Part shown: in pieces, positions 200 to 1,417 of the stretch
Layout of the letters: every line of letters begins with the position of its first letter
How positions within the stretch are numbered: position 1 is the first letter of the stretch
Notes under the pieces: generated by a model
What the model saw: the letters and a program-made list of their open reading frames with translations, nothing else
Database searches by the model: none
What the model was told of the DNA's origin: nothing
Made by a program: the position numbers and the translations under genes
Source of the DNA: a virus
Direction: 5' to 3' (one strand)
Virus record (IMG/VR): IMGVR_UViG_3300044639_000747
Location: 1 to 39,496 of that record
DNA: 39,496 nucleotides

Positions 200-1417
200 T
201 TACTCTCCAGTATTCTGAGAAGTATAGGACTTCTCGCTAAAGCCGAACTCGACTGATTGATTTATATAACTTAATAGATTTGGATACAAGTCCTTGTGAC
301 CTCGTAACCATTGGACAAATGCAGGGGCTGTTAGATATTCCTCAGCACCTACACCTGACCTAGCACCGCGTGAATACTCAACGGCACTATGCACATACTC
401 AAGTGCAGCGAGTATGCGTTCTTTCTTTAGTGAACCCCTGAACATGCGCACTTCAAGGGTAGATGTTGGTAGTACATTGACGGCTGAATACCGTTGCGCA
501 TAATTGTTTTGACCCTTTAGATGCTTGGGTATTTCCAAGCGATTGCTTCTGTCAAAGGATGCGTACGAGTTGCCTTGCCTACCTGCAATCAGGTATGACA
601 AAGCCTTGTTACGCATGAGTAACAGGGTGAATGAGTACTGATGCAACCTACCATTGAAGCCACGTCTATCAACGTGAACATGTAAGCCACAGGTACTCCT
701 GTCCCATGAGCGATAGCCCTTATCCAGTAGACCTTGAGTCCATTCCCAGTTCATGCTGTGTGCATAGGCAAGGGTCATTGGATGCGTGACTATCTCGAAG
801 CCGTCATTGAGTGAGCCGTCTTCCTTGAAGTAAGCGAGGTCACCTAGATATGACTGCACTAATTCCGGACCATCATAGTCATCACCATTAGACTCAACCT
901 CTAACTCGAACCCCATGTATACATGGCGGTCAGCATCAGGGTCATTCTCTACCCAATGGAATTGAGGATAAGGCTTGTAACCATAGCCCTCAACATCATG
1001 AGTACCACCACAACACCTGCCATTACGAGGGTCGTAACTATAATCACAACGGTCACAGTGTCGAGAGTGATTCTCGTAACAGGAGTTACACCAGTCGTCA
1101 CTGCTTACATTGTACAAGTCACTCTCATGTTCAACACTACCACACCTGTCACATGAACACATTCTGTTACCACATGGGACACAGTAACCAGCAAAGTTAT
1201 CATGCACCTCAGTGTCTGGGAATGTGCAGTCACACCAGTTACATAGGAAAATGTGAGCCTCACAGTACGCATCTTCGCTACTATCTAGTGCAAAGGTATC
1301 GTTGTCTAAGTCAATCATCTCGGCACATGTACCGTATGAACATACGACTTGTCGTTCATCTGACTCAATATTAAGGTATGTTATATCTGACGGTACCGTC
1401 AGTATGTCGTCACTCAT
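200..1417 (-). CDS. Amidoligase (COOH-NH2 ligase, Amidoligase_2-like) with N-terminal zinc-ribbon array
   Basis: A 405-aa protein. Residues 26-136 hold about 17 cysteines, mostly in CxxC pairs (WCDC, CVPC, CDRC, CNSC, CDRC), suggesting several zinc ribbons or treble clefs. Residues 167-350 show the glutamine-synthetase-fold amidoligase signatures: MGFELEVE (168-175), EDGSLNDGFEIVTHP (199-213), CGLHVHVD (243-250) and LEVRMFRG (321-328). Members of this family are predicted to form amide bonds between a carboxylate and an amine or ammonia using ATP. The start at 1417 is chosen because its ATG overlaps the stop of the preceding gene (ATGAGTGA) with GAGG about 9 nt upstream; ATG 1423 is the alternative. 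A CTGACGGTACCGTCAG palindrome lies 15 nt inside the gene. The family call is firm; the substrate is unknown. Confidence 0.85.
   Translation of the reverse strand: MSDDILTVPSDITYLNIESDERQVVCSYGTCAEMIDLDNDTFALDSSEDAYCEAHIFLCNWCDCTFPDTEVHDNFAGYCVPCGNRMCSCDRCGSVEHESDLYNVSSDDWCNSCYENHSRHCDRCDYSYDPRNGRCCGGTHDVEGYGYKPYPQFHWVENDPDADRHVYMGFELEVESNGDDYDGPELVQSYLGDLAYFKEDGSLNDGFEIVTHPMTLAYAHSMNWEWTQGLLDKGYRSWDRSTCGLHVHVDRRGFNGRLHQYSFTLLLMRNKALSYLIAGRQGNSYASFDRSNRLEIPKHLKGQNNYAQRYSAVNVLPTSTLEVRMFRGSLKKERILAALEYVHSAVEYSRGARSGVGAEEYLTAPAFVQWLRGHKDLYPNLLSYINQSVEFGFSEKSYTSQNTGE
1387..1402. promoter_or_regulatory. Palindromic operator candidate, copy 1
   Basis: Perfect 16-bp palindrome CTGACGGTACCGTCAG, lying just inside the 5' end of the amidoligase gene, where it encodes Leu-Thr-Val-Pro-Ser. 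It is one of six copies in the early region. Confidence 0.75.

Follow-up and report, generated by a model that had tools for sequence, protein, structure and literature searches.

Two adjacent, translationally coupled genes on the minus strand of this virus genome most likely encode a glutamine-dependent amidoligase. They were analyzed in a 39,496-base virus record, hereafter the window, in which bases 1–48 are identical to bases 39449–39496, so that the simplest reading of the contig is a complete 39,448-bp circle. According to the explanation that we favor, and that we consider reasonably probable as a whole, the pair forms a two-subunit enzyme made from an early, repressor-controlled operon. 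The N-terminal cysteine of the glutamine amidotransferase (GATase; Cys2, after removal of the methionine) would split glutamine, and the released ammonia would pass to the glutamine-synthetase-fold subunit, which would activate a carboxylate with Mg-ATP and convert it to an amide. The logic would be that of MurT–GatD or AsnB, but with another ligase fold. The substrate class would most likely be a cell-envelope carboxylate, for example a peptidoglycan precursor, and the resulting change of the host surface may benefit the mobile element.

Folds and active sites of the two proteins

The ligase gene occupies positions 200–1417 (minus strand, 405 aa), as the sequence-only reading had placed it, within an open reading frame of 200–1462, and its relatives favor a start at or near 1417. 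Its product matches Pfam Amidoligase_2 (PF12224) just above the cut-off (E = 9e-5; 22.9 bits versus 22) and PHROG 16683 at 2e-40, and all 70 relatives match Amidoligase_2 at E ≤ 0.01. An AlphaFold2 model built from these 70 relatives reached a mean pLDDT of 86.9; the alignments behind this and the GATase model were built without rows from annotated phage records. The best solved Foldseek match was YbdK (2e-6), followed by glutamine synthetases, PafA, and Dop, all of which have the glutamine synthetase fold. The low TM-scores (0.2–0.4) can be attributed to the extra cysteine region in the model and to the remoteness of the relationship. Within the catalytic domain (residues ~145–350; positions 368–985), the motifs GxExE, KxDGS, GxExVxHP, GxHxH, R280, N314, and TxExRxF show no or almost no variation across the 70 aligned sequences. 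Loss of the ATP- and metal-binding residues would have spoken against the proposed activity; instead, E171, E173, D200, E208, H246, H248, R280, E322, and R324, whose glutamine synthetase roles were assigned by motif, are 100% conserved. ATP-dependent amide formation is the predicted function of the ligase.

The GATase gene begins at position 197, runs to position 1, and continues across the circular join from 39448 to 38746 (minus strand, 299 aa), again as read earlier; it resumes at 39448 because bases 1–48 are repeated at 39449–39496. The portion at 1–197 carries the M-C-M-L start with the catalytic Cys2, and the remainder (38746–39448) contains the HxRxxTHG, NxHPF, HNG, and SDT motifs. Whereas the predicted family of the ligase was confirmed above the cut-off, the GATase of the window fell below it for both GATase_6 (4.5e-4; 20.7 versus 27 bits) and GATase_4 (8e-4; 18.8 versus 23 bits), the curated cut-off being a database threshold and not a biochemical feature. 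At E ≤ 0.01, GATase_6 was matched by 47 of 57 relatives and GATase_4 by 55. Residues C2, R71, T74, H75, G76, N99, G100, and D114 are identical in all 57, and the HPF motif is invariant or nearly so. The N-terminal catalytic cysteine, the glutamine-binding RxxTHG, the HNG oxyanion hole, and the aspartate are all present, and these conserved residues clearly place the predicted protein in the class II (Ntn) family. Conservation of the catalytic residues in both alignments also led us to reject a pair of inactive enzymes as a probable explanation.

The GATase fold was modeled on a near relative (mean pLDDT 81), and Foldseek matched this model to the GlmS glutaminase domain (4e-7) and also to EgtC and PurF. 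Structure prediction and profile searches thus agree with the earlier proposal of an amide ligase joined to a predicted ammonia-releasing amidotransferase, and we infer that the GATase acts as a glutaminase delivering ammonia to the ligase. Glutamine synthetase itself uses free ammonium, and the ligase fold alone is therefore no proof of coupling to a GATase. The resemblance to EgtC also counts against the favored explanation: EgtC is a hydrolase and not an ammonia donor. In an EgtA/EgtC-like pathway, a glutamine-synthetase-fold enzyme would couple an amine to glutamate or to another acid; the gamma-glutamyl group would later be removed by an Ntn amidohydrolase. The identity of the best solved ligase match fits such chemistry, YbdK being a glutamate-cysteine-ligase-like enzyme, and larger phage cassettes include gamma-glutamyl chemistry. 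However, the GlmS glutaminase domain and PurF rank first or level with EgtC in the profile and fold comparisons, and we regard this pathway as unlikely.

Coupled translation and recurrent pairing

The coding-strand junction of the two genes, ACTGGAGAGTAATTATGTGT, consists of a Shine–Dalgarno-like GGAGAG, the ligase stop codon, 2 bp, and the ATG-TGT start of the GATase. The GGAGAG (203–208, minus strand) lies in the last ligase codons and would serve as the ribosome-binding site of the GATase. The junction core GGAGAGTAATTATGTG (GGAGAG-stop-TT-ATG) is unchanged in the window and in 12 of 12 near relatives compared, which is strong evidence that translation of the two genes is coupled, as had been proposed from the letters alone.

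Pairing of the two genes extends well beyond this genome. In a search seeded with the ligase, a GATase lay downstream on the same strand in 78 of 78 viral loci, at distances of -146 to 45 bp (the negative ones include genes with an over-long first start). With the GATase as the seed, 73 of 79 viral loci had a ligase, and the six exceptions begin within ~215 bp of a contig edge and represent contig-edge cuts. Since each viral scan covered the best 80 of several hundred matches, with some contigs common to both, these rates apply to this family neighborhood and not to all Amidoligase_2 proteins. The complete ligase open reading frames form 89 clusters at 85% identity; the pair is thus not one phage counted repeatedly. 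For bacterial loci, the sequence retrieved contained a GATase in 76 of 80 cases, and within 1 kb in 72. No ligase–GATase fusion was found among the loci surveyed. The possibility that the pairing is unique to this genome, raised earlier as a ground for doubt, is excluded by this recurrence in viral and bacterial loci. Such strict pairing and coupled translation also suit a subunit complex better than the successive steps of an EgtA/EgtC-like pathway.

The bacterial carriers include Ruminococcus and other Firmicutes as well as Nocardia and other Actinobacteria. Families encoded near the Firmicutes pairs include DUF960, resolvases, a MobA-type relaxase, an integrase, and a recombinase; near the actinobacterial pairs, a Prim-Pol, a TrwB/TraG-like coupling protein, and an integrase were each seen in a single locus examined. 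These neighbors suggest that the bacterial pairs reside on mobile elements. The spread of the pair over phages, Firmicutes loci bearing relaxase or recombinase genes, and actinobacterial loci with Prim-Pol, TrwB/TraG-like, or integrase genes suggests that mobile elements profit from it. Genomes of Ruminococcus flavefaciens have several paralogous pairs (L176, L177, L187, L190, L193, and others), often adjoining a DUF960 gene and sometimes with a small open reading frame between the partners (DUF4314 in L190).

Cysteine clusters and probable control of the early block

Large cysteine clusters in both proteins, noticed in the sequence-only reading, are real and conserved. In the ligase, a LIM-like array spans residues ~26–136 (positions 1010–1342, minus strand): C59, C62, C79, C82, C89, C110, C121, and C124 are present in 100% of 70 sequences, bacterial ones included, and four further cysteines in at least 90%. 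The array is near-universal in the ligase family, the Firmicutes pairs included. In profile searches it weakly resembles PINCH LIM domains (best LIM E = 0.003); Pfam LIM is matched by 4 of the 70 family members, the window ligase not being among them, and among the viral structure matches is a predicted phage protein titled 'LIM domain containing protein'. The cysteine pattern suggests that the array binds zinc, and in the two-subunit amidoligase it would probably recognize either the substrate or a partner. That LIM domains serve to bind proteins is also consistent with a different role, in which the array would dock on a protein of the host or the virion and the enzyme would amidate its carboxylates or link them to an amine in a PafA-like manner. 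PafA and Dop are indeed among the structural matches of the ligase, and the array is retained in Firmicutes pairs that have no GATase zinc cluster. Nevertheless, PafA and Dop rank below YbdK and most glutamine synthetase matches, no tag protein gene was seen, and the LIM sequence similarity is weak (E about 0.003). We therefore consider a protein-modifying ligase improbable, to the same degree as the EgtA/EgtC-like pathway.

The GATase cluster comprises eight cysteines at residues 237–272 (positions 38830–38937, minus strand), of which C237, C240, C254, C257, C260, C263, and C272 are found in 100% of 57 relatives and C270 in 94%; model confidence is lower in this C-terminus than elsewhere. The cluster is present in most phage members, and 12 of 13 actinobacterial GATase open reading frames have four CxxC motifs, whereas 66 of 67 from other bacteria, mostly Firmicutes, have no C-terminal CxxC, although their partner ligases mostly retain 13–16 N-terminal cysteines. 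The GATases of phage MEP402 and ctgrD200 likewise have no such cluster. Because the pair persists in Firmicutes without it, the earlier suggestion that facing zinc clusters dock the two proteins was rejected as a general device, and the cluster would instead be an addition of the actinobacterial lineage. Small zinc-finger genes had also been proposed to flank the pair. One of the two neighbors agrees in part, as the product of 37843–38082 has a CxxC..CxxC pattern with zinc-ribbon matches below the Pfam cut-off. The other, 38057–38458, is WhiB-like (Pfam 1.7e-9), and WhiB-like proteins are normally Fe–S proteins.

The dispersed operators described from the sequence were borne out by motif counts. 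The 14-bp palindrome TGACGGTACCGTCA occurs in the window in five exact copies, and eight sites match at ≤3 mismatches versus 0.97 expected. One site lies at the start of the ligase gene (1388–1401); exact copies were located at 1827–1840, at 2368–2381, in the interval separating the early operon from the terminase gene (3244–3257), and within the GATase gene (38955–38968), and a copy with one mismatch at 2218–2231. In relatives, palindromes following the pattern T[AG]ACNGTACNGT[CT]A occupy corresponding places, among them ~-31 or +16 relative to the ligase start codon and a site within the GATase gene. A helix-turn-helix protein encoded at 2450–3070 (minus strand) is the candidate repressor reading these operators. 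In relatives, a GRW-type candidate recognition helix accompanies TGAC half-sites, an SRY-type helix TAAC, and the GRY helix of one relative (L014) TGACTGTACAGTCA; this covariation covers only a handful of independent lineages, and the relative L008 has both site types. A related palindrome within the GATase gene, TAACAGTACTGTTA (38799–38812), is retained in most relatives irrespective of operator type, even those of the TGAC type, and may be recognized by a different regulator from that of TGACGGTACCGTCA. The operators and the covarying helix suggest that the pair belongs to an early operon under a dispersed-operator repressor, an arrangement resembling the stoperator/immunity systems of some mycobacteriophages.

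The window fits an actinobacterial phage, judging from its WhiB-like, LtfC-like, and collagen-like tail genes and from the relatives that it has among phages of Microbacterium, Arthrobacter, and Mycobacterium. Immediately 3' of the portal gene, 7418–7939 (plus strand) encodes an HslV/proteasome-like Ntn protease (Pfam Proteasome 7e-6; PHROG 1040 'peptidase HslV family' 1e-33), possibly a head maturation protease; related proteins of phages infecting Microbacterium and Arthrobacter carry the annotation 'protease'. A predicted beta-1,4-glycosyltransferase gene lies inside the structural block (20645–21712, plus strand). The early block includes a metallophosphoesterase gene (31709–32467, minus strand), a gene type also found in phages of the OM43 study (PMC10580990).

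Substrate and relation to known systems

Cell-envelope carboxylates are our leading guess for the substrate. This guess is supported by related larger phage cassettes that have been interpreted as peptidoglycan modification, namely those of LUZ24/tf/UFV-P2, RIO-1, and phiEco32 (Iyer 2009; Hardies 2013, as cited in PMC5498523). As in the window, these combine an Amidoligase_2 protein with a class II GATase; unlike it, they add ATP-grasp, COOH-NH2 ligase, and gamma-glutamyl cyclotransferase (GGCT)-like genes, none of which was detected among the window open reading frames scanned with Pfam. A peptidoglycan reading carried over from the larger cassettes is therefore weak, and membership of such a cassette was rejected. 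In profile alignments, UFV-P2 proteins are remote relatives of the window family (94.6% probability for the ligase and 84.8% for the GATase), and the cysteine array is absent from the N-terminus of the UFV-P2 ligase. Alternatively, the pair could make a small amidated metabolite, through modification of a secondary metabolite or signal or as a counter-defense. A secondary-metabolite role has been suggested for the Marvin pair, as reported in PMC10580990, and the wide host range of the pair agrees with it; nevertheless, further biosynthetic genes were found neither beside the pair in the window nor in common among relatives, and this is the least probable of the readings considered.

More tentatively, and well short of probable, the pair may represent a two-gene amidation system that is widespread among mobile elements, being carried by phages of Actinobacteria and Proteobacteria and by elements of Firmicutes and Actinobacteria that are mobilizable or conjugative. 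In this system, the LIM-like zinc array would direct an amidoligase fed by glutamine to a single conserved target in the host. If so, the target could be a peptidoglycan precursor or a protein, and the modification might block rivals or host defense. Phage amidoligase–GATase genes have been termed wall modifiers for more than 15 years from genomic context only. Strict pairing, conserved active sites, and apparent spread on mobile elements make this compact pair suitable for direct testing, with the LIM-like array as a handle for substrate pull-down.

The assumption that the arrangement is little described did not hold, given the Marvin, OM43, and LUZ24/phiEco32/RIO-1 precedents. In the literature consulted, we found no biochemical or functional test of close relatives and no description of the cysteine-array architecture or mobile-element distribution of such pairs. 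Chromosomal pairs of Ruminococcus share the LIM-like ligase adjoining a class II GATase but differ in the absence of the GATase C-terminal cluster and in their DUF960, relaxase, and recombinase neighbors. For phiEco32, superinfection exclusion through a wall change had been suggested earlier, as cited in PMC10580990. The same source already names MEP401/MEP402 of OM43 phages an amidoligase–GATase pair; these genes are adjacent and in the same order as here, but their host is proteobacterial and the GATase has no C-terminal cysteine cluster. Marvin gp105/gp106, one of 19 Mycobacterium phage records with the pair (Marvin and MosMoris counted twice), shows the same two genes in the same order, cysteine clusters in both, and an actinobacterial host; it differs in its ~27–32% identity to the window pair, a longer ligase C-terminus, and larger spacing. 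The features of this Marvin-type module, a ligase followed by an adjacent GATase with cysteine clusters in both, are all found in the window, and the assignment of the window pair to this published kind of amidoligase–GATase pair is well supported.
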